DNA of 64,000 nt from Diplonema papillatum (taxonomy: Eukaryota > Euglenozoa > Diplonemea > Diplonemida > Diplonemidae), in the NCBI GenBank assembly GCA_030068145.1, contig JAPJBO010000135.1, forward strand, positions 62,001 to 126,000, read 5' to 3'. Of this stretch, positions 961 through 43,012 are shown piece by piece. The translations under genes and the position numbers were made by a program. The first letter of the stretch is position 1. The number at the start of each line of letters is the position of its first letter. Under the pieces are notes generated by a model. The model saw only the letters and a list, made by a program, of their open reading frames with translations. It searched no databases and had not been told where the DNA came from.

Positions 961-2453
961 TGCCGAAGCAACTCGACAGGTCGGGCGCGGTGAGTTGGGT
1001 GAAGAGGGTGGTCGGGACTGATGTCCCGTCCCTTTTTTCCTTCACCGCGAACAACCGCCGTCTCTCGACGGTGTTGAAGGTCGCCCGCGAGGTCGAGGGC
1101 ACCGCGGAAGCCGGGCTGAGGCGCCTCCTGGGCGCCTTGGGCTACACCAACGAGGAGGCCCCCCCGGAGGGCGTCGCCCAGTGGGTACTGGCGTGGCTCG
1201 CAGTCGCGTCGGCGCCTTCCGCCACCGAGGGCGAGTTCGCAGACCTGTTGCGCTCGTCCCCGAAGGCCGCGCCCCCGCCACAGACGCCGGGGCACATGCC
1301 GCTCCCCGCCACCCCCACCGACTCTACCGCGGCCCTATCTCCGCCGGCGGCGCGCCGCGTTTCGTTCGCTGAGAGCGACGACCCGGGTGATGGCGACCTC
1401 AGGGACTGCGGCTCCACCGAGGGCAGCCGGGGCGGCGACTCAGACCGCATGGACCGCCTGCAGCGGCAGGTCGAGCGCCTCACCGAATTGGTGATGGCGG
1501 CTCTCCCGACGCGCGACTCGCCGCGGCCTGAGCCTGTCCCCGCGGCGACGACTCACCCCGCACGCGACGCGCCTCCTGGTTGCCCCGCGCCTCCGCCGGT
1601 AGCGATGCCCGTTGGGTCCTTCCCCGCCGCCGCGGCCACGCCGCTGGACTCCTGTCCCTGCCCAGCGCCCCGTCAGGGGCCGCTCGCAGGCCAGCTCCCG
1701 CCACCTCCGCCTCTTATCGACGTCTCTCGGTTACCCCGGGCTGTCCTGCTGCCGGGCTCCTCCTGCGGCCTCTTGCGGGCCATCGAGGACGCCGCGCCGC
1801 CAGTGTACCGACACCATCCGTACGCTGAGCTCTACCAGCCCCGCGCCGAGCCCCCCCAGCCCTACGCTGGGTCTTCACAACCCCTTCCGGATTTTCCGGA
1901 GGGCCCGCCTTCGCTGGGGGAGGGCGGGTCGGTCCAAGGCTCCCCCACGCTCCTCTCCCCCGGGCCAGAGCTCCTCGACCCCCAGCTCTGGGTCGGCCTC
2001 AGCCCCATCGAGAAGTCGCTGGCCCTGGTGCACATCCGCGACTTTTTCGCCGACATCCTCGATGCCATCCCGAGCGTCGCCAACGACGCCCAACATCTCA
2101 CCAACCACGTCACCACCATCATGCGACTGATGGACGACACCACCGACCCAGACGCCCTCGTCCAGCTGGGAAGGGACACCATCCACCGGATGATGGTCCT
2201 GAAGACGGCTCTGAAAGCCGGGTGGTCTCTTGCAGGCAGCCTCCAGCACCGGCATCAGCACGAGGCCGGGTTTCCTCCGTTTCTACGGAGCGTCTTCCAG
2301 GCTCTACAGAAAGCCGAGGAGCAGCCCGCCTCGAAGCCGCCCAGGAAGCGCAGCCCGAGGCCCCGCACCCGACACTCGGGCGAAGCTCTTCCCCCCGACG
2401 CTCCCCAGGCCCCTCAGCGGACGAACGCAACCAGGAGCAAGGCCAAGCAGTAG
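960..2453 (+). CDS. Gag-like ORF1 of a VIPER-type YR retrotransposon
   Basis: 497 codons, starting at the first base after the A1 repeat and ending TAG. Three zones are visible: a compact helical N-terminus (about residues 1-110), a long Pro/Ala/Ser-rich middle (about 110-345) with a short predicted coiled coil near 165-185 (MDRLQRQVERLTELV), and a helical conserved-looking block (about 345-450) before a basic tail rich in Lys, Arg and Pro. There is no CCHC zinc knuckle. By position and composition this is the Gag/nucleocapsid equivalent that would package element RNA, but assignment rests on context because Gag proteins diverge fast. It overlaps the recombinase ORF by up to 232 nt in another frame. 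Confidence 0.7.
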   Translation: MPKQLDRSGAVSWVKRVVGTDVPSLFSFTANNRRLSTVLKVAREVEGTAEAGLRRLLGALGYTNEEAPPEGVAQWVLAWLAVASAPSATEGEFADLLRSSPKAAPPPQTPGHMPLPATPTDSTAALSPPAARRVSFAESDDPGDGDLRDCGSTEGSRGGDSDRMDRLQRQVERLTELVMAALPTRDSPRPEPVPAATTHPARDAPPGCPAPPPVAMPVGSFPAAAATPLDSCPCPAPRQGPLAGQLPPPPPLIDVSRLPRAVLLPGSSCGLLRAIEDAAPPVYRHHPYAELYQPRAEPPQPYAGSSQPLPDFPEGPPSLGEGGSVQGSPTLLSPGPELLDPQLWVGLSPIEKSLALVHIRDFFADILDAIPSVANDAQHLTNHVTTIMRLMDDTTDPDALVQLGRDTIHRMMVLKTALKAGWSLAGSLQHRHQHEAGFPPFLRSVFQALQKAEEQPASKPPRKRSPRPRTRHSGEALPPDAPQAPQRTNATRSKAKQ

Positions 2454-3394
2454 ACGCCGTGAACCGCTTCCCTCCTCCGGTCTCGGGGCGATGCGGACGT
2501 CCCCTCCTCTCGGAGCCCCCTCTCTCACCCGGCGAACGGAACCGTCTTGTCCGGACTGCGAACGCGTACGTGGCGGATGCACTGGCGCTGTCCACACGAC
2601 GCGGGATCCACTCCGTGTACCGGCGCTTTCTGGAGTTCCGACGTCACTGGGATGCAGAGGCAGATTCGCAGCTCGATGTCCCGACGGCGCTGGTCTTGTT
2701 CGTGACCCGTTTGCTCTCTCGTGGAGACATCTGCGCGGCCTCGGCAGTACAGTACGTCGTCAACGTACAGTCGGCCGAGAAGCGGTTGGGGCGGCCTGTC
2801 GACAGCCAGCTCGTCAGGGACTTTGTCAGGTCTCTGAAACGGGCCGGCGCGATGAAGCCGTCGAAGCAGGCTGTACCGGTGACGAAGGACGAGCTGCATC
2901 TTGCCGTTGCCCTGGAAGCGGACCCCAGGGTGCGTGTTGCGCTGGCTTTGGCCTGGCAGGGTGCCGCCCGCGTGGACGACGTGCTGACGAGAAAGGCAGA
3001 GCACGTCACCGAAAGTGCTGGTTTCTGGGCGGTGAACTGGGTGGGCTCGAAGTCGGATCCTTTCCGTCTCGGCCAGGTGACAGGAGTGATTCTTCCTCCA
3101 GCCCAGGACCAGGAGCTCCGGACGCTGTTGTCGCAAACACCTCCGGGACGCCTCCTGTTCCCGGACCTCCCTTTCCGACGAGTTGTGACCGCGCTGAAGC
3201 GCGCGAACATTTCACTCTCCGGCCATTCTCTCCGGCGGGGCGCCCTGTTTCATCTCCTGAGAAGCGGGATCGACCTGAAGGTGATCCAAAGTGTGTCGCG
3301 CCATACGACGCTGAGTGCGCTAATGCGATACCTTCCGGAGGCCGAGGTTCCGCTCGTCCGGAACACCGCGAGGGCGTCGGCGTCCCTTCTCTAA
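2222..3394 (+). CDS. Tyrosine recombinase (YR) of retrotransposon 1
   Basis: 390 codons if the first ATG is used. That ATG lies inside the gag ORF, so the real start may be later or reached by frameshifting. The catalytic set is visible: Arg I in GAARVDDV (codon near 2968), a beta-strand Lys in VGSKSDPF, the H-x-x-R box GHSLRRGA (near 3222), a second His in SRHTTLS and the nucleophile Tyr in LMRYL (codon near 3329). This family cuts and religates DNA through a 3'-phosphotyrosine and, in DIRS/Ngaro/VIPER retroelements, integrates a circular cDNA without an integrase. The gene lies upstream of RT, the order described for VIPER, whereas DIRS and Ngaro have YR last. All key residues are present, so the protein could be active. 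Confidence 0.88.
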   Translation: MVSCRQPPAPASARGRVSSVSTERLPGSTESRGAARLEAAQEAQPEAPHPTLGRSSSPRRSPGPSADERNQEQGQAVDAVNRFPPPVSGRCGRPLLSEPPLSPGERNRLVRTANAYVADALALSTRRGIHSVYRRFLEFRRHWDAEADSQLDVPTALVLFVTRLLSRGDICAASAVQYVVNVQSAEKRLGRPVDSQLVRDFVRSLKRAGAMKPSKQAVPVTKDELHLAVALEADPRVRVALALAWQGAARVDDVLTRKAEHVTESAGFWAVNWVGSKSDPFRLGQVTGVILPPAQDQELRTLLSQTPPGRLLFPDLPFRRVVTALKRANISLSGHSLRRGALFHLLRSGIDLKVIQSVSRHTTLSALMRYLPEAEVPLVRNTARASASLL

Positions 3395-3507
3395 CCCTTC
3401 GTCTTGAACCCCCTTTCCCGTTTAAGCCGCCCAAGAAGTTCCCCGACCCGTTGGCTACGTTCTACCAGGGGCCGGGAGAGGGTCCCGAAGAAGACTTGCC
3501 CCCCTCG

Positions 3508-5193
3508 ATGTTCACTCCCTTTGTTGGTGTTGCTTACGGGGGTGAACTCCTCATCAACAACCTCACGGCCGTCCCTACGCAACGCAGAATCGGCGAGGCT
3601 CTCGCGCCCATCTCGTCATCGTTCATGAACCTTGAGAGGTTGACGGCGCTGGACAGCCGGGGGCTGCTGCGCGGTGTGCTGGACGTGGTCCGTTCGTGGG
3701 AATCCTTCCGGTCCGCCCTGCTCCCGGGGGCGGAGGAAGCGCTGATGGCATCGGCGATCACACGAACGACGTCGAGGCGCATGCTACGCCACTTCCCGGA
3801 TCTGGTGAGATATGGCGTGGCAGAGGTCGCATCGGGCGGGTTGAGGGTCGTCCTCCCCGCCTTCACTGTCGACAAGAAGAGCGGTGGGCAGAGGTTCGTG
3901 TGTGACGGTCGCAAGCTCAACGCGATCATGGCGCGCCCGCCTCCAATGCTGCTCCCTTCGGTTCACGAGGTGATCGACCGCGTGTTGGCCTCATCGGTGG
4001 TGTTTCTCGCGGACGCCCGGAGCTATTTTTATCAGTTCCGGCTCGACGCAGACATCCGACCGTATTTTGGCATGCACCTGGCAGGGCCGCGGGGCCGTTT
4101 TGTACAGGCACAACTCGCCGCAATGTGCATGGGGTGGAGCTGGGCTCCGGCGATAGCTCAGAGGGCCTCCCGGGTGCTCCTACCGGAGGCTGACGGTCTA
4201 CCCTGGGTGGACAACTTTGTCGTCGTGGGAAGCTCGTTGCGGGAGGCAACTTCGCGGTTCGACTCTTTCGTGCAACGCTGCAGGGACGTTAACTGCGAGC
4301 TCAACGAAGACGACGAGCAGTTTGGAGCCCCCCTCAGGGAGTTCGACCTCCTAGGACTCCATTTCGAACTCTCCCGGTTCGACCGCCCCGCCCGGTATAG
4401 GATGGCAGAATCGTGGGTGTCGAAATTGCTTGGTTCCCCCGAGCTCGCCATGGTTCGGCTTGGAGGAGTATCCCCTCGCCAGTTCTACCGGGTGTTCGGA
4501 TCTTTGGTCTGGTTCGCGTACACGACACGTTTCCGACTGGCCTACGCCCGATGTTCCTTGTCGTTCCTGCAGAGGCTGGCCTCGACTCTGGCATCGGATC
4601 CAGCTGCCTGGGATGTGACGAGGGCTGTGCCGCCCTCGACGGTGCGTGAGGTCGAGCATCTTGTTTCCCTTGTGGAAGAGAATCGCTGGGTCAGTCGGTC
4701 AGAATCCTTTCCCTCATCGGTCACTCTCTGGACAGACGCCTCGTCCAAATGGTGGGCTGCGGTCCTCGAAGGGGAATCTGAGCGCGTGTCACAGGGCCCC
4801 TTTGTGGAGTTGAGTCACACCCACATCTTTTTGAAGGAACTCTTTGCAGTCCTTCGGGGCATCGAGATGACCGCCAGTTTCCATTCGAACGTCCGCGTAA
4901 GGCTCATGGTAGACAACCTCCCGGCGGTCCATTGTCTCAACAAGGGACACTCAAAGAATTTTGCGGCCAATGTCCTTTTGACGAGGATATTCGACGCCGC
5001 ACGGGCTGCCGGCCTTGTCATCAGTGCCGAGTGGGTTCCGACCGATGCGCAAAGGGCCGACCCCTACACCCGCGGGGTGCTGGCCCTGGTGAGCGACACG
5101 CCAGAGAGTGTCTGGTCGCCTCATGCAGAGGATCTAGCTCCGCCCTCAGATTTGGTGTGCCACTGCGTGGTCCCTGGGGGTCCTGATGCGTAA
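3508..5193 (+). CDS. Reverse transcriptase-RNase H of YR retrotransposon 1
   Basis: Third frame of the element. It is open from 2230 across the whole YR gene, but homology-like content starts only after the YR stop. 3508 is the first Met after that stop; frameshifting or reinitiation is equally possible. RT motif A is ADARSYFYQF (Asp near 4011), motif B MCMGWSWAPAIAQ (near 4124) and motif C WVDNF (4204-4218). RNase H follows with TDAS (near 4730), LKELFAV, MVDNLPAV and a distal DPYTRG. It would copy element RNA to DNA and degrade the template. Motif C has Asn where YxDD enzymes have the second Asp, so this copy may be impaired or the lineage may differ. The stop TAA (5191-5193) lies in the 20-bp core that precedes B1. 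Confidence 0.85.
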   Translation: MFTPFVGVAYGGELLINNLTAVPTQRRIGEALAPISSSFMNLERLTALDSRGLLRGVLDVVRSWESFRSALLPGAEEALMASAITRTTSRRMLRHFPDLVRYGVAEVASGGLRVVLPAFTVDKKSGGQRFVCDGRKLNAIMARPPPMLLPSVHEVIDRVLASSVVFLADARSYFYQFRLDADIRPYFGMHLAGPRGRFVQAQLAAMCMGWSWAPAIAQRASRVLLPEADGLPWVDNFVVVGSSLREATSRFDSFVQRCRDVNCELNEDDEQFGAPLREFDLLGLHFELSRFDRPARYRMAESWVSKLLGSPELAMVRLGGVSPRQFYRVFGSLVWFAYTTRFRLAYARCSLSFLQRLASTLASDPAAWDVTRAVPPSTVREVEHLVSLVEENRWVSRSESFPSSVTLWTDASSKWWAAVLEGESERVSQGPFVELSHTHIFLKELFAVLRGIEMTASFHSNVRVRLMVDNLPAVHCLNKGHSKNFAANVLLTRIFDAARAAGLVISAEWVPTDAQRADPYTRGVLALVSDTPESVWSPHAEDLAPPSDLVCHCVVPGGPDA

Positions 5194-9459: not shown

Positions 9460-11217
9460 TCATCTCCTGGAGCCGCCTCGATAAGTGGGCGTTCTCCGGT
9501 ACAACCACACCATGTTCCAGCGTGCATCGGGGCCACCCGGTTCGGCCGCCATCAGCCCGGCGTATGCTTCCCGCCGGCGAATGTGTGAGTATGCGTCGCA
9601 GTCCCAGTAGATATGCTGTTCGTTCTCCGTCACGCCGCTCCCACAGTGCTTGCAGCTGGGCGCCTGCGGCTCAGCTCCGGCCTGCCTCATCCGCGACGTG
9701 AACTCCGCCGTGTTCACACCCCCCGCAATCGCGACTCGAATTAGCTTCGCCGTGTGCGCGGAACATTCCCTCGTCTTCCAGAACGCATTCGTGCGCTCCA
9801 AGTCGGCTCTTTCCAGCCCCTGATATCCTGGCCTTCTCGCCATCAGTCGGGCCCACGTCCTCGTTCTCAGGTCCGCCCTCACTTCGTGCCCCCTCTTCGA
9901 GGGCGACGAGGCCAGCGGGTCGAACACTGCACCATTCCGTCGTAGCGTGCGAGATAGGGGCCCAGGTTCCCATATGTGTCCACACTCCTCCATGCTCCTC
10001 ATCGCCAGCCCGACTGGGCCGAGGGGTTGGTCCCCCTCGGCGTACCGCCCCCGGATACTCTCCATCAGAGGTAGCAGTCGCGGTAGCCTCTCGCACGCCG
10101 CGTAGAACGCCGTCGTCACCCGGTACGCTAAACACGTACCGGGGTCCGTCAGGTGGCCCTTCTCCTGGAAGTTCAGGACCATTTCTCTCGCGCGCTTCGG
10201 GTTTGCTCCACCCCAGATCAGACCCATCACCGACGTCGTCAACCGCTTCATCGCCACCTTCGACACCGGCGCGAAGGAGCAGCCTGATAGCGCTGCCGGC
10301 AACACATTCGACTGCACAATACGGACCCGCTTTTCGTACCGGAATGGCGCGTGGCGGAGGCCTTCCGCTAGGGCCGCCGCCCTCTCTACCCTCTTAGAGT
10401 CGGACCTCTCCTTTCTGTTCTTCGCCGTTGAGACTAGGGCCCCCAGACACGTGACGGACTTGCTAAATCGCAGCAGCGCATTTCCGCTTCGGAGTCTGAG
10501 CGTCGACTGGTGCCTCTGCCTCGTCGAGAATGCGATGGTCTTCTCGAGGTTTAGCTGCATTCCGGTGAGTGTGCAGAACTCGTCAACAATGTCGACTCCC
10601 TTTTGCAGTGCGGCCTCCGACAGCCTGGACAGTAGTGTGGCATCATCCGCGTACGACTTAGGACTCACACCCTCAGCTTCTTTCTTGACCGCTTTCATCA
10701 CTACCGACAGTAGGGCATTGATGAGTATGACGGACACAGGGCACCCTTGAAGGATACCGTTGGTCACACTAAACTCCCTGCCCACCCCTAGCGGCAACTT
10801 GAAGCGTCTCGCGAGCAGACTGTAAATCGCCCTCAGCGGCTTGAGAACCCGACCGTGCAGTCCTAAGTCCTCAGCCAAGCGTAGCACTACCTCTCGCGGG
10901 ACCATGTCGAAACACTTCCGGAAGTCCAGCGCCACTCCGTAGAGCGGCTCTCCGTCCAGCAAGGCGTCCTCCACCTCGAGCCCTATCTCCATCAAGACGT
11001 CCTCGATCCGGTGGCCCGGCCGAAAGCCTTTCTGTCCTTCTTCGATCCACCCCTCCTGCCACAGGACAATGTCCGCAAGCCTGCGGCAGGCCCACAAGCG
11101 GTACACGGCGGATGTGACGGTTATCGGCCTCGTGTGCAGCGGGTCCTGGCTCTCATCTTTCGGCACCATCGACACCAGCGCAGTTGTCATGCTTGCCGGC
11201 CAGTCCCCAGTCGCCCG
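9460..11217 (-). pseudogene. LINE reverse transcriptase segment (5'-truncated)
   Basis: 576 codons are open from 11190. RT core motifs are intact: VALDFRKCFDM (motif A), NGILQGCPVS (motif B) and YADDATLL (motif C). The CCHC-type finger CKHC...H...C follows. Very similar to residues about 840-1400 of the LINE ORF at 37.4-42.3 kb. The endonuclease, 2A and AlkB regions are absent, so this is a 5'-truncated copy. The truncation point at about 11215 abuts the sequence ccgttaagca. Confidence 0.85.
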
Positions 11218-29255: not shown

Positions 29256-30299
29256 ATGGGGAGGAAGGTGAAGTCATGTACCGAGAGAGGAGTCGCGAAG
29301 CGAGGCGGAGTCGCGGAAGGGAGCCTTCTCGAGAGGATGGCGGTCTTTTCGACGGAGGAAGCGCGGGATGCGATACGGAATGGAATGCATGCTGTTTCCA
29401 CATGCTCCGCTCGCCGCTCGGCTTTGACAGCCTATGAAGGCTTCTGTGAGCTGAAGGAGCTGGTGCCATGGCCGACGTCAGCGAGGAAGCTGGAGGCTTT
29501 CGGCGGAGCCATGAAGCTTTGCGGCCACCCTACCACGGGAAAATGCTACATATCGCATGTACGCACATGCTACATATCGCATGTACGCACCCACAGCGCC
29601 CTCAACTTCCAAGGGATGCCCGCGGCGGACCAAGACTACCTGAAGTTCGTCAACCAGTCGCTCAAGAGAGGAGCCGGAGAGGAAGACTGCTGGCCGATCG
29701 GGACAGAGATGATCGGGAAACTGGCGTTGGCGGCTGTGACGAGAGAAGACCATGAAGTCGTCTCTGCGAGCGTGGTCATGTTCTTCTTCCTCATGCGGGT
29801 CAGCGAGTTCGTCGAAGCGGACATGATGGTGGACGACGTCCAGAAGGTTGTGTCAGTCCGAGTGTGCAGGAGGAAGAACGACCAACAGGCTATCGGTAGA
29901 ACTGTTGCAATGAAGGCGATCGAGGAGCCCGAGCGATTTGGGAGACACGCCATCTGTCCGTACGTGGCAGCAAGCATCTGGGTGAACACCAAGGCCAAGA
30001 CCAACCCCGACCGGTTCCGAAGAGGACTTTATCGGCTTCTGGGACAGGCAGGCTTCGGGAATTCCCAGGATGGACGCAAGCGGCAGCTGTACTCTCCACA
30101 CTCACTCAGGAAGGGAGGAGCGCAGAGCTACGTCCTTGCGGGAACCCAGCGGGACCTGGTTCAGAAAATCGGAGGATGGAGCTCCGAGGAAAGTCTGAAG
30201 CGGTATGAGGACGAGGTGATGTTGAACCCCTGTGTTCAACCGATCAGGCCGCCTCTGAAGTCCTTGTCGACGAAAGATGCGGACTCTCGTCCCCAGTAG
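29256..30299 (+). CDS. Tyrosine recombinase of YR element 2
   Basis: 347 codons, starting MGRKVKSC. The catalytic signature is visible: Arg I in FFLMRVSEF (codon near 29797), a Lys in CRRKNDQQ, the H-x-x-R box PHSLRKGGA (near 30098), Trp in GGWSSEES at the second His/Trp position, and Tyr in LKRYEDE (near 30204). Such enzymes integrate circular DNA in DIRS-like retroelements and in Crypton transposons. The gene is separate from the RT gene and carries its own P and Q flanks. A 24-bp direct duplication near 29540-29587 repeats the peptide CYISHVRT in the N-terminal DNA-binding half; it keeps frame but may disturb the fold. Confidence 0.85.
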   Translation: MGRKVKSCTERGVAKRGGVAEGSLLERMAVFSTEEARDAIRNGMHAVSTCSARRSALTAYEGFCELKELVPWPTSARKLEAFGGAMKLCGHPTTGKCYISHVRTCYISHVRTHSALNFQGMPAADQDYLKFVNQSLKRGAGEEDCWPIGTEMIGKLALAAVTREDHEVVSASVVMFFFLMRVSEFVEADMMVDDVQKVVSVRVCRRKNDQQAIGRTVAMKAIEEPERFGRHAICPYVAASIWVNTKAKTNPDRFRRGLYRLLGQAGFGNSQDGRKRQLYSPHSLRKGGAQSYVLAGTQRDLVQKIGGWSSEESLKRYEDEVMLNPCVQPIRPPLKSLSTKDADSRPQ

Positions 30300-33344: not shown

Positions 33345-36011
<2,667 letters not shown>

Positions 36012-36477: not shown

Positions 36478-36538
36478 TATGGCTAAAGATAAAGTGGTGT
36501 CACCTGTGGGGTAATCTCAGGGCCGCCCACGTGATAAG
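36478..36538. repeat. Sequence shared by two LINE 3' flanks
   Basis: gtatggctaaagataaagtg through acgtgataag lies next to the LINE 3' end here and, nearly unchanged, at 50368-50428. It is absent from the copies at 7.4 and 42.3 kb. Either a repeated target or transduced flank. Confidence 0.6.
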
Positions 36539-36607
36539 CCGTTAAGCATTGAGTTCTTTTAAGTACATGAACCACACGGATTAACATGCACTGCCTTGAA
36601 AGTCAGG

Positions 36608-37471
36608 TTATCGGATGACGTCGTCACCTGCCATCGCGTCGTCAAGGTCGAGCATTTGTGGCGCTAGCGGGAATTGGCTTTCTTGCGATTCGAGAGACTG
36701 AGTCGGCGAGTACGAGGGCGGGCACGTGTGCCCGTTTTTCACTTTCGAGGGCATTGGTGTGCCCGTGGTCCCCGGTCGTTTCTGAGAGCTGCTTGCCCTC
36801 GGTACCTTCTTCTTCCTTCGATGCACCCCTGACTCGGGGGTGGTCGCCTTCGTCTTCTTCCGCTTGCGGCCGGCGATCGGGCCTTCCTTCGGGGTGCCAA
36901 GCACCCTCTTCTTCAGCGCTGGTCGTTCGCTGGTTCCTGGCGTTGGTGGCGGCCTCTTGGTCGCCCGTCCGGTTGCCGCCGTCTCCTTTTTCGTTGCCGC
37001 GAGCGGCGCTCGCGCCGCTCGCGCCGCTCGCTTTCCTAATGGCGTCTCCCGCTGTACACCCACCTGGGTGGGTGAGGAGGGCCTCTTCTTCTTGTTGCGT
37101 CCGGGGGTTGACTGGACGTTCGGCTTGTTGGACTGGTGGTGGCCGCGGCTGCAACATGCCGCCGGTCGCCTCTGCGTCAGCGTAGGGAGCCTTTTGCACT
37201 CTTGGCAGGTTCCTCTGCCATGCGTGCGGCAGGCATGATGCCCGCTGCGGCAACACGCCGCCGCCGTCTTGCACTCGCCGCACTTCGTCGTGCTGTGCTC
37301 TGTGCACACCGCGATCGGCTGCCCATCGTTCGCGTGGTGATGGTGCCGGCAGCACATCTCTACCGTGGGAACGTCCCTTCGGACGAGTGCTCTGCACGCC
37401 TCACACTTCCCTTTGTGATGGGTCGCGCACGTGACGAGTGCCTTCTCTATACCGACACCCGGCATATGCAC
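36608..37471 (-). pseudogene. LINE Cys/His-rich and basic C-terminal domain, out of frame
   Basis: 287 codons open in a different frame from the main ORF, overlapping its last about 70 nt. It holds three Cys/His repeats (CATHHKGKCEAC, CTEHSTTKCGEC, CRTHGRGTCQEC, each followed by CC...HH), then a Lys/Arg/Pro/Thr-rich tail and an acidic end (LDLDDAMAGDDVI). The copy at 8.3 kb shows 23 extra bases near the junction that keep the frame, so this copy lost them by deletion (near 37519). The domain may bind element RNA or DNA. Confidence 0.75.
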
Positions 37472-40400
37472 GGGGTCTGGGTGCAGTTGTGGTGGGGCAG
37501 GCAGGGCCCACCTCGCCGGTCGTCGGGCACTGCGTCCCTACATCGCTTCCTTTCACTTGTTCCTCAAGTATCGTCCCCGTGTGTGCCTCGCGAAAGCGTG
37601 GCCTGGGCCGTATACCCGATATCCCCGTGATGCCCATGAACGACAGCGACGTCGTCGGGCACACCCTCTCTCCTCTCATGCAGCTTCCCAGCCCTTGCTG
37701 TGCCGCCAGCTTGTCCAACGCGCTCATCATGCAGCGCAGGACGTTTCCCCGTTCTCTCACCCCCTTCGGCGCATTCCCGTGCAGCGGCATGCTGAGGCCC
37801 GAGAAGAGTTCAAAGTCGATCGCAAGCTCCAGCATTGACGCCTGCCCGTTCTCGGTCCATTGCATGTCCGACAGCCACGCTACCAACGCATAAAACGTCG
37901 GTAGTCCCCAGGTCTTGTTCCGCTCCCACGTCCATGCCGGGGCAATCCGCGCGAAGGGGTGGTCAAATTTCTCGGCAGGCATCGCATTCGCTCTCGACCA
38001 GGGGGTCGTGGGGTTCCTGGCCACCCAGCCACGTGCTTCGAGCCCAGCCCGTTCCGCAAGGATTTCAGCCATCATCTCCTGGAGCCGCCTCGAGAATTGG
38101 GCATTCTCGGGTACTACCACACCGTGTTCCAGCGTGCATCTGGGCCAGTCGGCCCGGTTGGCTGCCATCAGCTCGGCATGTGCCTCTCGTCGCCGTATGT
38201 GCGAGTACGCTCCGCAGTCCCAGAATACGTGTTTCTCGTCCTCGGTGTCGCCGCTTCCACAGTGCTTGCAGCTGGGCGCCTGCGGCTCAGCTCCGGCCTG
38301 CCTCATCCGCGACGTGTACTCAGCCGTGTTCACCCCCCCCGCCAACGCTACACGTATAAGCCTCGCGGTGTGCGCGGGACATTCACGCATCCTCCAGAAG
38401 GAGTTCGTCCGCTCCAGGTCGGCTCTCTGTATGCCCTCAAATCCCGGCCGCCTCGCCACCAGTCGGGACCACGTCTTCGCCCTCAAGTCCGCCCTAACTT
38501 CATGTCCCCTCTTCGAAGGTGCCGAGGTTAACGGGTCATATGTTGCACCATTCCTCAGCGTGCGAGACAGGGGCCCGGGTCCCCATACGTGTCCACACTC
38601 CTCCATGCTCCTCATCGCCAGTCCAACTGGCCCCAGGGGTAGGTCCCCCTCGGCGTATCTTCCCCGGATGCTCTCCATCAGAGGCAGCAGTCGTGGCAAC
38701 CTCTCGCACGCCGCGTAAAACGCTGTCGTCACCCTATATGCTAGGCATGTACCGGGATCCGTCAGGTGGCCCTTCTCCTGAAAGTTTAGGACCATCTCCC
38801 TCGCGCGCTTCGGGTTGGATCCACCCCAGATCAGTCCCATCACCGACGTCGTCAGCCGTTTCATCGCCACCTTCGATACCGGCGCGAAAGAGCAGCCTGA
38901 CAGCGCCGCCGGTAGCACATTCGACTGCACAATCCGGACCCGCTTTTCGTACCGGAACGGCGCATGGCGGAGGCCTTCCGCCAGGGCAGCCGCCTTCTCC
39001 ACCCTCTCCGAGTCGGACCTTTCCGTCCTATTCTTCGCCGTCGAGACTAGGACCCCGAGGCACTTGACGGATTTGCTAAACCGCAGCAGCGCATCCACGC
39101 TGCGGAGTTTGAGAGTCGACTGATGCCTACGTCTCGTCGAGAACGCGACCGTCTTCTGGAGGTTTAGCTCCATCCCGGTGAGTGTGCAGAACTCGTCTAC
39201 TACGTCCACTCCCTTTTGCAGGGCGGCCTCCGACAGCCTGGACAGCAGTGTGGCGTCGTCCGCGTATGACTTTGGACTCACACCCTCCGCTTCTTTCTTG
39301 ACCGCTTTCATCACTACCGACAGCAGGGCATTGATGAGTATGACGGATACAGGGCACCCTTGAAGGATACCGTTGGTCACACTGAACTCCCTGCCCACCC
39401 CTAATGGTAGCTTGAAGCGTCTCGCGAGCAGTCTGTAGATAGCCCTCAGCGGCTTGAGAACCCGATTGTGCAATCCTAAGTCCTCGGCTAAGCGCAGTAC
39501 TATCTCTCGCGGGACCATGTCGAAGCATTTCCGGAAGTCCAGCGCCACACCGTAGAGCGGCTCCCCGTCTAACAAGGCGTCCTCCATCTCGAGCCCAATT
39601 TCCATCAAGACGTCCTCGATCCGGTGACCCGGTCGAAAGCCTTTCTGTCCTTCTTCGATCCATTCCTCTTGCCACAGAACTATGTCCGCCAGCCTGCGGC
39701 AGGCCCATAAGCGGTACACGGCGGATGTGACGGTTATCGGTCTTGTGTGCAGCGGGTCTTGACTCTCATCCTTCGGCACCATCGACACCAGCGCAGTTGT
39801 CATGCTTGCCGGCCAGTCTCCAGTTGCTTCGACCAGGTTCATGACGTCTGCAAGTGCATTCAGCAGGGGGAGCGGCAACTCCCGCAGTTCAGCCATACGC
39901 CAGCCATCCACCCCTGACGCGCTTTTCTTCGGCTTCTTCCTCAGCAGAATTCGCAGCTCCTCCCCCGTGATTGTTCCGGCTTCCATCATATGTGGGCCGA
40001 TGTGATCCCGGAACCGATCCCGAAACGGCTCGTACTCCGGCTCTGGCCCGTCCTTGTACTTACGCAGGATAGGGTCCCACGCAGTGTTCAGCACCTCGTC
40101 CATCTCGTCAACATTTGCAGTCACTCCCGCCCCCTTTCGCAACACCCCCGACGGCTCAGCGCGTCCGGCGCAGATGGTTGTCAGACATCGTCTGCTCGCA
40201 TCGGCCCTCTCGTTCAGCTTGTCTCGGTATTTCGTAAACCTGGCCGCCGATCCTTCCTTTCCGAGCCTGCTCGTCTCTTCCCGCAATGCCGTGAGAAGCT
40301 GCTTCGCCTCCTCATGATCCGGGAATCCTTCTGTCCCTTGGCCATCTTTCATGCACGCCTGTGCCAGCCGCCTGCTGTTCTGCCAGCAACGGGATACCTC

Positions 40401-42335
40401 ATGCGGAACTGCCTCCGGCCCGCGCCGTTGCGCAAGGTAGCTGCAGATGCGTTCCATCCTGTGGATGGCCTTCCGGAGCCGTAGCTGTCTGCTGTTCGCC
40501 GCCCCCGACCCGTCGCTCGCAGTGCTTGCCGTGATACAGACTCTTTTAGGTGACGTCTTTATCCCCCGTCCCGTACTTCTTCCCCTTTCTTCCGCAGGGA
40601 TTCCGAAGGCATCCTGCAAGTACTGCTCACTGACTCGTGACCACTCGAGCCAGGCCTCTTCCGCTCGCTGTGCTGCCAGCCGTTCCGCGAAATCGGAGTT
40701 GGCCAGTCTCTGTACGGCTTCCCTGTAAGCTTCTGTGTCCGAGAGGCCCCACTTGGGTCCCCCCTCCGTAGAGATTTCCCGCGGTACTTTAAATCGCCAC
40801 ACGATTTGGCGCAGCGCCGCAATGTCCAGGGTCATTGTCACGAGCCGGTGTCCCGGCACGTTCACCGCGGTGGTGACGCATTGGCGGAAAGCTCCCGTCG
40901 TTATTCGGTTGAGGAGTATGCGGTCGATCCTCGTGCCCGATGTCCGGGCGCTGGTAAAGGTCGGTGGCGGTGGTGTGTCGGTACGCGCATGGTGCAGTTC
41001 CGCTGCGTCGGACCATCCATTCCTTAGTGCCTTCCGCAGTACAGGGGACCGGTCTTCTTCTGTGTTCAGGTCACCCATCACCATTATGGGGACGTCACCG
41101 AGGCTATCCGCCGCTGCGAAGAGGATCTTCTCCAGCATGTCCTCACGCTCCTCGCTCTCCGCCCTCCCGTTTCCGGAAGGGCAGTAGACATTGAACACGT
41201 GCACGAACGTGTTGCCGGCCCCTGTTGCTACTACCGTATGGCTCACTCGGTCCGGGGACCGTATTGCTGCGTGCGAGAGCGCCGTCATCGTATCGTACGC
41301 CGGTATCGGTCTCAGTACTAGAGTGGAGAGCCCTCCGTTCGCGGCGTTCATCGTCGAGCGACTACCGGAGTTCCTACAGAGTCTTCCGGGTGGTGGCAGA
41401 CCCCAGTGGCAGCACCATTTCCGCAGGTATTCCTCCGCCTGCACCCGTTTGCACGGAAGGAGTGTCACCTCCTGGCAGCAGAGAAGATCCGCTTCCACCG
41501 CGTCGGCCGCTGGGAGATACTGTAGTAGGTTGGTTACGTTTAACGTCGCGAACCTCATCTCCGCGCGGCCGGGACCAGGGTTTTGTTCGACGTCCCCCGC
41601 GGTTATCAGCCGCTGTCTTGCTGATTCTTTGATTGATTGTAGAGTTCTTTGGTGATGAAGCAAAAGTGTCCGTGGCGCGGGGCTGGACTGATGTTGGGGG
41701 GGTGCAGTGGATGCCTGAGGGCTGGGCGGGGGGGGTATGGGAGTTTCTTGCGGGGTGTCCCGGCCTTGCAAACTTTGGGAGGCGGCCTCGCGCACGGCCC
41801 TGTAGGTCAGCGAGACCCGGTCGCGTGCGACATCATCGGGACGAATCCCGTGTGTCCACAGGTTCCTGGCCTCGCCTTCCATGTGGCACAGTGTGCCGAC
41901 CGGCAGAGGGGTTCTCACTCTCCGGCTCCCCCTCTCCCATTCCATGACCGTGTCGCTCAAGAGCGATATGGTCGCTACCCTCGGACCCAGTTCTCTCTGG
42001 TCTTTGTGGGGGTTGATCCCCACTCCCCTCCGGTACCAGTTGGCCAGCAACTGGTCCGGTTCCCAACCAAGGCGGTCACGTATGAGATCCGCCGCTTCTT
42101 TCAGGGGCCCCTCGGGGATACCCCGTTCCAGTCTGATCGGGGGTTCACCTAGTCGATAGGCGTGCCCCCATTGCTGGGTTTCCCTGCTGTGTCCACCCCC
42201 CAGCCTTCCCCATGGGGCTTCCGGGTTGAGCTCGGGTGCTCGGCTCAGTCTATCCAGAAGATCCCGAGGGATCGCCTGGAAACTAACCGTTAAGCATTGA
42301 GTTCTTTTAAGTACATGAACCACACGGAGTAGCAC
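37401..42335 (-). CDS. LINE polyprotein: AlkB-like dioxygenase, 2A, APE endonuclease, reverse transcriptase, CCHC finger
   Basis: 1644 codons. The first about 16 residues come from the tail of the upstream LINE copy. Residues about 18-180 match the AlkB Fe(II)/2-oxoglutarate fold: NWY at 99-101, HKD at 110-112, distal His 162, and R-x5-R at 173-179 (RVSLTYR). AlkB enzymes remove alkyl groups from nucleic acid bases. After a Pro/Gln/Ser linker comes 2A, GDVEQNPGP at 247-255, where ribosomes skip a peptide bond between Gly254 and Pro255. The APE-type endonuclease spans about 260-505: Asn266, Glu289, Tyr384, GDLN 421-424, Asp471 and His496. RT spans about 800-1100: LDFRKCFD (Asp933), GILQGCPVS and YADD 1024-1027. 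The finger C-x2-C-x9-H-x4-C is at 1356-1374. The extreme C-terminus is shifted by a deletion. All other catalytic residues are present. Confidence 0.9.
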   Translation of the reverse strand: MLLRVVHVLKRTQCLTVSFQAIPRDLLDRLSRAPELNPEAPWGRLGGGHSRETQQWGHAYRLGEPPIRLERGIPEGPLKEAADLIRDRLGWEPDQLLANWYRRGVGINPHKDQRELGPRVATISLLSDTVMEWERGSRRVRTPLPVGTLCHMEGEARNLWTHGIRPDDVARDRVSLTYRAVREAASQSLQGRDTPQETPIPPPPSPQASTAPPQHQSSPAPRTLLLHHQRTLQSIKESARQRLITAGDVEQNPGPGRAEMRFATLNVTNLLQYLPAADAVEADLLCCQEVTLLPCKRVQAEEYLRKWCCHWGLPPPGRLCRNSGSRSTMNAANGGLSTLVLRPIPAYDTMTALSHAAIRSPDRVSHTVVATGAGNTFVHVFNVYCPSGNGRAESEEREDMLEKILFAAADSLGDVPIMVMGDLNTEEDRSPVLRKALRNGWSDAAELHHARTDTPPPPTFTSARTSGTRIDRILLNRITTGAFRQCVTTAVNVPGHRLVTMTLDIAALRQIVWRFKVPREISTEGGPKWGLSDTEAYREAVQRLANSDFAERLAAQRAEEAWLEWSRVSEQYLQDAFGIPAEERGRSTGRGIKTSPKRVCITASTASDGSGAANSRQLRLRKAIHRMERICSYLAQRRGPEAVPHEVSRCWQNSRRLAQACMKDGQGTEGFPDHEEAKQLLTALREETSRLGKEGSAARFTKYRDKLNERADASRRCLTTICAGRAEPSGVLRKGAGVTANVDEMDEVLNTAWDPILRKYKDGPEPEYEPFRDRFRDHIGPHMMEAGTITGEELRILLRKKPKKSASGVDGWRMAELRELPLPLLNALADVMNLVEATGDWPASMTTALVSMVPKDESQDPLHTRPITVTSAVYRLWACRRLADIVLWQEEWIEEGQKGFRPGHRIEDVLMEIGLEMEDALLDGEPLYGVALDFRKCFDMVPREIVLRLAEDLGLHNRVLKPLRAIYRLLARRFKLPLGVGREFSVTNGILQGCPVSVILINALLSVVMKAVKKEAEGVSPKSYADDATLLSRLSEAALQKGVDVVDEFCTLTGMELNLQKTVAFSTRRRHQSTLKLRSVDALLRFSKSVKCLGVLVSTAKNRTERSDSERVEKAAALAEGLRHAPFRYEKRVRIVQSNVLPAALSGCSFAPVSKVAMKRLTTSVMGLIWGGSNPKRAREMVLNFQEKGHLTDPGTCLAYRVTTAFYAACERLPRLLPLMESIRGRYAEGDLPLGPVGLAMRSMEECGHVWGPGPLSRTLRNGATYDPLTSAPSKRGHEVRADLRAKTWSRLVARRPGFEGIQRADLERTNSFWRMRECPAHTARLIRVALAGGVNTAEYTSRMRQAGAEPQAPSCKHCGSGDTEDEKHVFWDCGAYSHIRRREAHAELMAANRADWPRCTLEHGVVVPENAQFSRRLQEMMAEILAERAGLEARGWVARNPTTPWSRANAMPAEKFDHPFARIAPAWTWERNKTWGLPTFYALVAWLSDMQWTENGQASMLELAIDFELFSGLSMPLHGNAPKGVRERGNVLRCMMSALDKLAAQQGLGSCMRGERVCPTTSLSFMGITGISGIRPRPRFREAHTGTILEEQVKGSDVGTQCPTTGEVGPACPTTTAPRPRAYAGCRYREGTRHVRDPSQREV
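41571..41606 (-). other. 2A ribosome-skipping motif in the LINE ORF
   Basis: Encodes LITAGDVEQNPGP, matching the D-(V/I)-E-x-N-P-G-P signature of 2A/CHYSEL peptides. It would release the AlkB-like part (about 254 residues) from the endonuclease-RT part during translation. 2A sequences are established in trypanosomatid L1Tc/ingi-type LINEs. Confidence 0.9.
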
Positions 42336-42972
42336 GCACTGCCTCGAAAGTCAGGTTCTCGGATGACGTCGTCACCTGCCATTGCGTCGTCAAGGTCGAG
42401 CATTTGTGGCGCTAGCGGGAATTGGCTTTCTTGCGATTCCAAAGACTGAGTCGGCGAGTACGAGGGCGGGCAGGAGTGACTGTTTTCCACTTTCGAGGGC
42501 ATTGGTGTGCCCGTGGTCCCCGGTCGTTTCTGAGAGCTGCTTGCCCTCGGTACCTTCTTCTTCCTTCGATGCACCCCTGAGTCGGGGGTGGTCGCCTTCG
42601 TCTTCTTCCGCTTGCGGCCGGCGATCGGGCCGTCCTTCGGGGTGCCGAGCACCCTCTTCTTCAGCGCTGGTCGTTCGCTGGTTCCTGGCGTTGGTGGCGG
42701 CCGCTTGGTCGCCCGTCCGGTCGTCGCCGTCTCCTTTTTCGTTGCCGCGGGCGGCGCTTGCGCCGCTCGCTTTCCTACTGGCGTTCCCCGTTGTACGCCC
42801 ACCTGGGTGGGTGAGGAGGGCCTCTTCTTCTTGTTGCGTCCGGGGGTTGACGGGACGTTCGGTTCGTTGGACTGGTGGTGGCCGCGGCTGCAACATGCCG
42901 CCGGTCGCCTCTGCGTCAGCGTAGGGAGCCTCCTGCACTCTTGGCAGGTTCCTCTGCCATGCGTGCGGCAGG
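42291..42972 (-). mobile_element. 5'-truncated LINE copy (tail only)
   Basis: Holds part of the Cys/His repeats (CRTHGRGTCQECRR, ACCSRGHH), the basic region and the 3' tail, about 95 percent similar by eye to 36541-37230. Its 3' end is joined directly to the 5' end of the long LINE. Its 5' end abuts another LINE tail at 42973. Confidence 0.85.
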
Positions 42973-43012
42973 CCGTTAAGCACTGAGTTCTTTTAAGTAC
43001 ATGAACCGCATG
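42973..43012 (-). mobile_element. Extremely truncated LINE tail
   Basis: About 40 bp matching only the LINE 3' terminus (ccgttaagcactgagttctt to acatgaacc). Third member of a head-to-tail series with 42291-42972 and 36539-42290. Confidence 0.7.

Follow-up and report, generated by a model that had tools for sequence, protein, structure and literature searches.

AlkB domains lie within the RNA virus replicase of plant flexiviruses, a mobile RNA-based genome; here we describe a family of long interspersed nuclear elements (LINEs) of Diplonema papillatum that carries an AlkB domain ahead of a 2A motif. The 2A sequence of the trypanosomatid LINE L1Tc is N-terminal. The copy from which we started lies in a stretch of 64,000 nucleotides (GenBank assembly GCA_030068145.1, contig JAPJBO010000135.1, positions 62,001 to 126,000 of the forward strand), which was analysed in full and is called the window below.

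Several described systems share single traits with this family. Within the open-access literature, the nearest published case is the AlkB of orchid Ty3/gypsy elements, where a retrotransposon has likewise captured an AlkB-family domain (PMC9289625). These elements are of the long terminal repeat (LTR) type and encode a protein of the ALKBH5 clade, with m6A activity in vitro, in a separate open reading frame (ORF), whereas the Diplonema AlkB belongs to a LINE, is nearest to ALKBH8 and Ofd2 by sequence and lies in a putative UGA-2A polyprotein. The L1Tc/ingi elements are, like the family described here, APE-type LINEs of Euglenozoa with an in-frame 2A (L1Tc 2A cited in PMC4981915); the Diplonema LINE has in addition AlkB and, upstream, an ORF1 with a leaky-looking stop. 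INGI elements carry RNase H after the reverse transcriptase (PMC12278014), the criterion for that clade, and a Pfam scan of P0001 gave no RNase H family at E ≤ 1. The readthrough extension of the ilarvirus coat protein also follows a UGA and CU in frame and has no conserved AUG (PMC11166343), but the Diplonema stop stands between ORF1 and ORF2 of a LINE and shows no general 3′ stem-loop among the six junctions folded. Finally, the retrotransposon Tca2 of Candida albicans has an in-frame UGA between gag and pol (PMC2194720); it is an LTR element with a potential pseudoknot, and its junction gave no readthrough in Saccharomyces cerevisiae. The accessible parts of the open-access literature yielded no description of a LINE or Helitron with AlkB, or of a LINE with stop readthrough.

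The initial annotation read the frame at 37401..42335 as a LINE polyprotein that begins with an AlkB-like dioxygenase set free by a 2A motif. The AlkB residues, the 2A motif between AlkB and the LINE enzymes, and the endonuclease (APE) and reverse transcriptase (RT) motifs were indeed all found in one frame at the residues it had given:

37401..42335 (−): open frame AlkB-2A-APE-RT-zinc knuckle of a truncated LINE copy (ORF translation, motif check, Pfam)
41793..42284 (−): AlkB (2OG-Fe(II) oxygenase) domain, residues 18-181 (Pfam, PDB phmmer, Foldseek search with a low-confidence model)
42000..42008 (−): HxD iron ligands, residues 110-112 (motif check, PDB alignment)
41850..41852 (−): His162, the distal iron ligand (motif check, PDB alignment, conservation in retrieved loci)
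41799..41819 (−): R-x5-R, residues 173-179 (R173, R179), which we take to be the 2-oxoglutarate/substrate arginines (motif check, conservation in retrieved loci)
41571..41597 (−): 2A motif GDVEQNPGP, residues 247-255 (motif check; agrees with D[V/I]ExNPGP)
40905..41531 (−): APE endonuclease domain, residues 269-477 (Pfam Exo_endo_phos, 2.9e-8)
39051..39752 (−): RT domain, residues 862-1095 (Pfam RVT_1, 1.4e-20; PDB LINE-1 ORF2p, 5.9e-21)
inside 37401..42335 (−): zinc knuckle, from residue 1356 (by eye)

The identity of the AlkB block was confirmed by profile search. Pfam PF13532 (2OG-FeII_Oxy_2) matched it with an E-value of 5.7e-12 in the whole frame and 4.9e-13 in the piece alone, at 46.7 and 50.2 bits, respectively, against a cut-off of 31.2. 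The NCBIfam AlkB equivalog was not reached (14.6 bits against a cut-off of 231). Among PDB chains, phmmer matched the piece to ALKBH8 at 4.9e-7 and also to chains of Ofd2. As a check of the jelly-roll fold, a structure model was built from a two-row alignment; it is of low confidence (mean pLDDT 46). In a Foldseek search with this model, AlkB-family chains made up 49 of the 50 rows listed, including all 28 at E ≤ 0.001, with TM scores (query) of 0.31–0.52; a few of these chains, whose titles do not name AlkB, were assigned to the family by their entry. The distal His and R-x5-R were conserved in 33/33 occurrences in the retrieved loci, with some places counted twice. The pattern used presupposes HxD and is hence no test of HxD itself. 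When only the AlkB piece was searched against proteins, a single match was returned, at 32% identity. Of 12 proteins matching residues 17–560, 11 of them from D. papillatum, three have a listed AlkB domain, all from D. papillatum. The C-terminal end of the gene model P0007, of a host-like membrane protein, is an AlkB piece with 95% identity to that of the LINE; the model has probably taken in a fragment of a LINE. Another frame (L051:1-1911) starts with a ubiquitin domain at the N-terminus and has AlkB at the C-terminus.

Genome scans of the 271 Mb D. papillatum assembly yielded 643 candidates for the AlkB-2A piece. All 150 that were scored carry it free of stops, at 76–100% identity, which rules out the chance fusion in a single copy that the initial annotation had allowed for. 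Many of the matches sit in frames of 1,980–2,046 aa, and by identity they fall into three bands, A1 (94–100%), A2 (86–89%) and A3 (76%). With APE and RT in a single frame, and with 5′-truncated copies, the family is an APE-type non-LTR retrotransposon, that is, a LINE, of D. papillatum.

The AlkB domain of this family is under purifying selection. Using one sequence per subfamily, dN/dS (omega) over the subfamily pairs was 0.15–0.24 for AlkB and 0.43–0.80 for its flanks. For A1–A3 we obtained 0.15 for AlkB (bootstrap 0.08–0.26), 0.15 for APE, 0.71 for the linker and 0.80 for the spacer, the last value being alignment-dependent (0.50 in another alignment). For A2–A3 the values were 0.15 (0.09–0.26) for AlkB, 0.49 (0.28–0.85) for the spacer and 0.46 (0.21–0.83) for the linker, and for A1–A2 AlkB gave 0.24 (0.10–0.51).

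Eleven stretches with an AlkB-LINE were read (L009–L019). An ORF1 frame of 630–738 aa, with a zinc-binding-like Cys pattern at its end (by eye), precedes ORF2 in L011–L014, L016 and L018; it is shorter, cut or broken in L009, L010, L015, L017 and L019. The order in the longer copies is ORF1, TGA CTN, spacer, AlkB, linker, 2A, APE, RT, zinc knuckle and Cys/His tail. The 2A consensus D[V/I]ExNPGP (as defined in PMC4981915) was present in 21/21 AlkB-LINE occurrences in the retrieved loci. After the copies that keep the upstream part had been read, the idea that AlkB starts the polyprotein was dropped. Thus, the initial annotation was right in seeing a real AlkB followed by 2A, which proves to be fixed in a high-copy LINE and under purifying selection, but its reading of AlkB as an N-terminal, free-standing product is not supported: wherever the junction is kept, ORF1 and then TGA-CTN precede AlkB in the same frame.

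At the junction, TGA-CT was found at the ORF1 end, with ORF2 in the same frame, in 27/27 junction rows (23 distinct places) spanning six sequence groups, namely A1, A2, A3, the sister families B and C, and a chimera, L013. An in-frame TGA-CTG was also present in all three copies of a further, OTU-like family (L055–L057). The codon after UGA therefore begins with CU in 30/30 rows. Its third base is A in the groups A1 and C; it is G in A2 and A3 as well as in the OTU-like family, and C in B1 and L013. In the window, TGA followed by CT makes up 2.9% of stops; since the rows are related, we did not multiply probabilities over them. One junction, in L025, stands on a fragment that soon stops. In none of the 12 A1 rows (9 places), nor in L013, does an AUG stand after the TGA and ahead of the AlkB active site, and in A3 none follows residue 32 before that site. 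UGA-CUA has been described as a type II leaky context with about 1.5–2.9% readthrough on its own, the type II signal being UGA then CUA or CGG, with a 3′ stem-loop in many cases (PMC11166343). As AlkB follows ORF1 and an in-frame TGA-CTN, and no AUG precedes its active site in A1 and L013, it is probably made as ORF1-AlkB-2A, which we infer would arise by UGA readthrough, with APE-RT split off by 2A.

The interval between stop and 2A is not peculiar to AlkB-bearing elements. Families B and C have ORF1, TGA CTN, a spacer, 2A and APE-RT in this order, without AlkB. Because they keep both junction and 2A, AlkB was probably inserted into a pre-existing readthrough-to-2A interval. In the OTU-like family (150 places scored of 1,082 candidates; RT about 48% identical, P0036) an OTU-like domain occupies the place of AlkB after the junction. 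In D. papillatum this domain, at 18.5 bits, does not reach the Pfam cut-off (23.3); no Pfam match to OTU was obtained in the shorter L055 piece or in P0036, and P0036 is without an NPGP motif. We call the domain OTU-like because it aligns, at E 2e-5, to P0064, whose OTU passes Pfam (39.9 bits). In the chimera L013, ORF1 and part of the spacer are of B type and are followed by a spacer, AlkB and ORF2 of A type; the frames of 2,043–2,046 aa suggest relatives of it. Among 78 proteins matching the RT region, OTU is listed in two (P0044 and P0064) and NPGP motifs occur in several. AlkB is listed in none of the 78, a weak absence, because even in A-family models such as P0002 and P0003 the annotated start lies beyond AlkB. 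P0025 and P0038 have two NPGP motifs each, upstream of APE.

The 5′ ends of the copies bear on the template. A common 39-nt sequence stands at the element 5′ end in L011, L013 and L014 and, shortened, in L012. It occurs 427 times in the genome, compared with 0 occurrences of a reversed control. By eye, 20 of about 100 listed places lie 2.2–2.6 kb upstream of AlkB-LINE matches, and two lie 0.9–1.5 kb upstream of the AlkB of an R2-like LINE described below (C233, C364), all in the same orientation. The sequence differs from the 39-nt repeat at the 3′ tail of the family. We take it to be the spliced leader. In length it equals the spliced leader exon of D. papillatum, which is 39 nt (PMC10161547). 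If this presumed identity is right, the templates were trans-spliced mRNAs still holding the UGA.

Taken together, we consider it fairly probable, judging from sequence, that AlkB is part of a UGA-readthrough ORF1-AlkB-2A product of the LINE and reverses N-alkylation, and this is the best explanation as a whole. Most ribosomes would stop at the UGA, making the ORF1 protein the main product, while a minority would decode UGA-CUN as sense and add the AlkB-2A extension. The chain would be released at NPG/P, with APE-RT made separately. AlkB would then be anchored in the element ribonucleoprotein through its ORF1 coat. There it could directly reverse N-alkylation, of the m1A/m3C type and perhaps also m6A, on the RNA or single-stranded cDNA of the element, and this dealkylation would clear blocks to reverse transcription or host marks.

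A number of observations weigh against this explanation. The junctions were retrieved by exact ORF1-end sequences, a search that sees only near relatives and misses divergent junctions, and the families are related, so that the rows are not independent. Of the six junctions folded, only B1 has a strong 3′ stem-loop (z −4.9 at 60 nt); at 110 nt, A1 gave z −2.3 and A3 z −2.0, and A2 and C were about 0 or above. An AUG does follow the stop in both A3 copies (residue 32), in one of two A2 copies (residue 17), in C (residue 36), in B (residues 101 and 145) and in the OTU-like family (residue 6), and reinitiation may for this reason be open outside A1. The AlkB model reaches a mean pLDDT of only 46, the A1–A2 omega intervals overlap between AlkB and its flanks, and the sister families amplify without AlkB.

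Of the other explanations, the one that survives best is that AlkB acts as an epigenetic or epitranscriptomic eraser of a regulatory host mark, such as m6A on mRNA or an N-alkyl mark on DNA, instead of in repair or block clearing. The orchid protein demethylates m6A in vitro (PMC9289625), the host has AlkB-type genes as well as genes for 5-methylcytosine and base J (PMC10161547), and the Helitron AlkBs described below could act on DNA marks or mRNA. The listed neighbours of the Diplonema domain are, however, ALKBH8, Ofd2, ALKBH6, ALKBH3, ALKBH2, OsALKBH1 and AlkB; ALKBH5 is not among the matches listed, and a DNA N6-methyl adenine demethylase appears among them at E 0.1–0.3 only. We regard an eraser role as unlikely, though as the strongest of the rivals.

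AlkB could also be a free protein, as the initial annotation proposed, with a translation start of its own, either by reinitiation downstream of the UGA or at a non-AUG codon; the AUGs after the stop in A3, in one of two A2 copies and in the OTU-like family would allow this. Yet A1 and L013 retain TGA-CT and the reading frame even though no AUG precedes the active site in them, and reinitiation would not require the same frame; independent translation thus appears improbable. That AlkB is a passenger without function for the element would accord with the spread of sister families that do without it, but the low omega of AlkB relative to its flanks, the unbroken conservation of the distal His and R-x5-R and the occurrence of AlkB in two further element types make this very improbable. 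Least probable of all is that cis-splicing takes the UGA out of the mRNA, or that the UGA is read as selenocysteine or tryptophan: the gene models P0038 and P0057 do place ORF1-like and ORF2 sequences in a single protein, but L011–L014 were, by the presumed spliced leader that they carry in whole or in part, copied from processed mRNA and still have the TGA, and an Rfam scan of nine loci gave no match at the gathering score, no search aimed at SECIS elements or the genetic code having been made.

Related AlkB domains were found in two more types of mobile element. The first is an R2-like LINE, whose AlkB occurs at 23 places with at least 81% identity to its own query and is 74–77% identical to the AlkB of the APE-type LINE over about 180 residues. 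Its open frames reach 4,088 aa (L032–L043, L037:787-3642, L045:1-9429), and many copies are close to contig ends. The one place read at length, C1171, has a frame with AlkB, a weak OTU match (20.3 bits against a cut-off of 23.3), RT and UCH; the RT is nearest to R2, and a restriction-like endonuclease is suspected by eye. Going by P0013, this element had been considered a tyrosine-recombinase element (TATE-like), which was dropped as the DNA gives AlkB, OTU-like, an R2-type RT and UCH. No 2A was found within 220 residues of the R2-like AlkB in 12/12 loci. One R2-like locus, L040, has 180 bp of LINE A3 spacer DNA, at 78%, upstream of AlkB, and for this reason AlkB probably passed later from the APE-type LINE to the R2-like LINE.

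The second type, whose AlkB occurs at eight places in the genome, comprises Helitrons, going by the two places read. In both of these stretches (L052:4037-7999 and L053:2-3997(−)) AlkB is N-terminal, beside Helitron_like_N (5.1e-30 and 5.2e-38), and it is 42–49% identical to the LINE and R2-like AlkBs. In a 12-row AlkB tree the three LINE rows formed a supported group, as did the two Helitron rows, and the joint LINE and Helitron group mixes with one bacterial and one host-like row. A single origin of AlkB within the elements is thus likely by pairwise identity, while the tree leaves the joint group open. A PHROGs search gave nothing at E ≤ 0.1, and in a single scan of viral contigs with P0014 no relative could be confirmed. 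Helitrons move through DNA, so that any substrate common to the three element types would be mRNA or single-stranded DNA. The occurrence of related AlkBs in Helitrons makes a role confined to RNA intermediates less general. We tentatively propose, on a balance that is close to even, that one AlkB lineage serves as a shared counter-silencing or repair module of APE-type LINEs, R2-like LINEs and Helitrons, and that the UGA-CUN slot, in several families followed by 2A, attaches AlkB or an OTU-like deubiquitinase to ORF1 in low, fixed amounts.

The window copy itself is 5′-truncated, frame-broken and dead, and many other copies are open. It was inserted into the 3′ untranslated region (UTR) of a shorter family copy, and the features around it are as follows:

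42286..42335 (−): foreign stretch that enters the frame as residues 1-16; it belongs to the neighbouring copy, as its 3′ tail (copy comparison)
42286-42324 (−): 39-nt tail repeat of the neighbouring copy (repeat comparison)
42286..42971 (−): 3′ end of the other, shorter family copy, with its Cys/His tail and 3′ UTR (ORF list, repeat comparison)
42972-43010: third 39-nt tail repeat (repeat comparison)
36608..37471 (−): Cys/His-rich and basic C-terminal tail of the window copy, in a shifted frame (ORF list; compare P0003)
36538..36576 (−): 39-nt 3′ tail repeat of the window copy, then its 3′ UTR (repeat comparison)

Residues 1–16 are considered foreign because, in the genome scan, matches of other copies start at residue 17 or later, except for C619, which starts at residue 4. 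Aligned to copy L010, the frame of the window copy is broken at a gap near 37521, from which we conclude that the copy is dead and that its Cys/His-rich C-terminus runs on in the ORF at 36608–37471. Such head-to-tail nests, with copies in the 3′ UTRs of older ones, are frequent and are clear in the window copy, L014, L015 and L018. The 39-nt repeat at 36538, 42286 and 42972 had been considered as a spliced leader or target signal, which was rejected, as it is the family's 3′ tail. Elsewhere the window holds an RT-bearing open frame at 9460–11190(−) (RVT_1, 1.7e-19), an RT-like open frame at 2230–5193(+) (RVT_1, 4.3e-5, under the family cut-off), a tyrosine recombinase frame at 29256–30299(+) (Phage_integrase-like, 3.1e-6) and tandem repeats of GCT and 12-nt units at 34600–35500.

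The genome paper took a dozen AlkB homologues as a sign of demethylation-based regulation in D. papillatum (PMC10161547). Of 250 candidate PF13532 matches 150 were scored, and all but about 17 (by eye) are at mobile-element places. The AlkB content of this genome is thus to be reread as lying mostly in mobile elements. The finding suggests that alkylation of nucleic acids acts as a pressure on mobile elements beyond plants and RNA viruses, and the presence of AlkB in a LINE, an R2-like LINE and Helitrons suggests a common way to repair or unmask mobile nucleic acid. Because the module occurs in RNA- and DNA-based elements, a comparison of substrates could separate single-strand repair from mark erasure. 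If the UGA and 2A layout holds true, three protein levels would be set from one LINE mRNA. With gene replacement mentioned for the organism (PMC10161547), D. papillatum offers a testable case of AlkB-bearing mobile elements in a protist.

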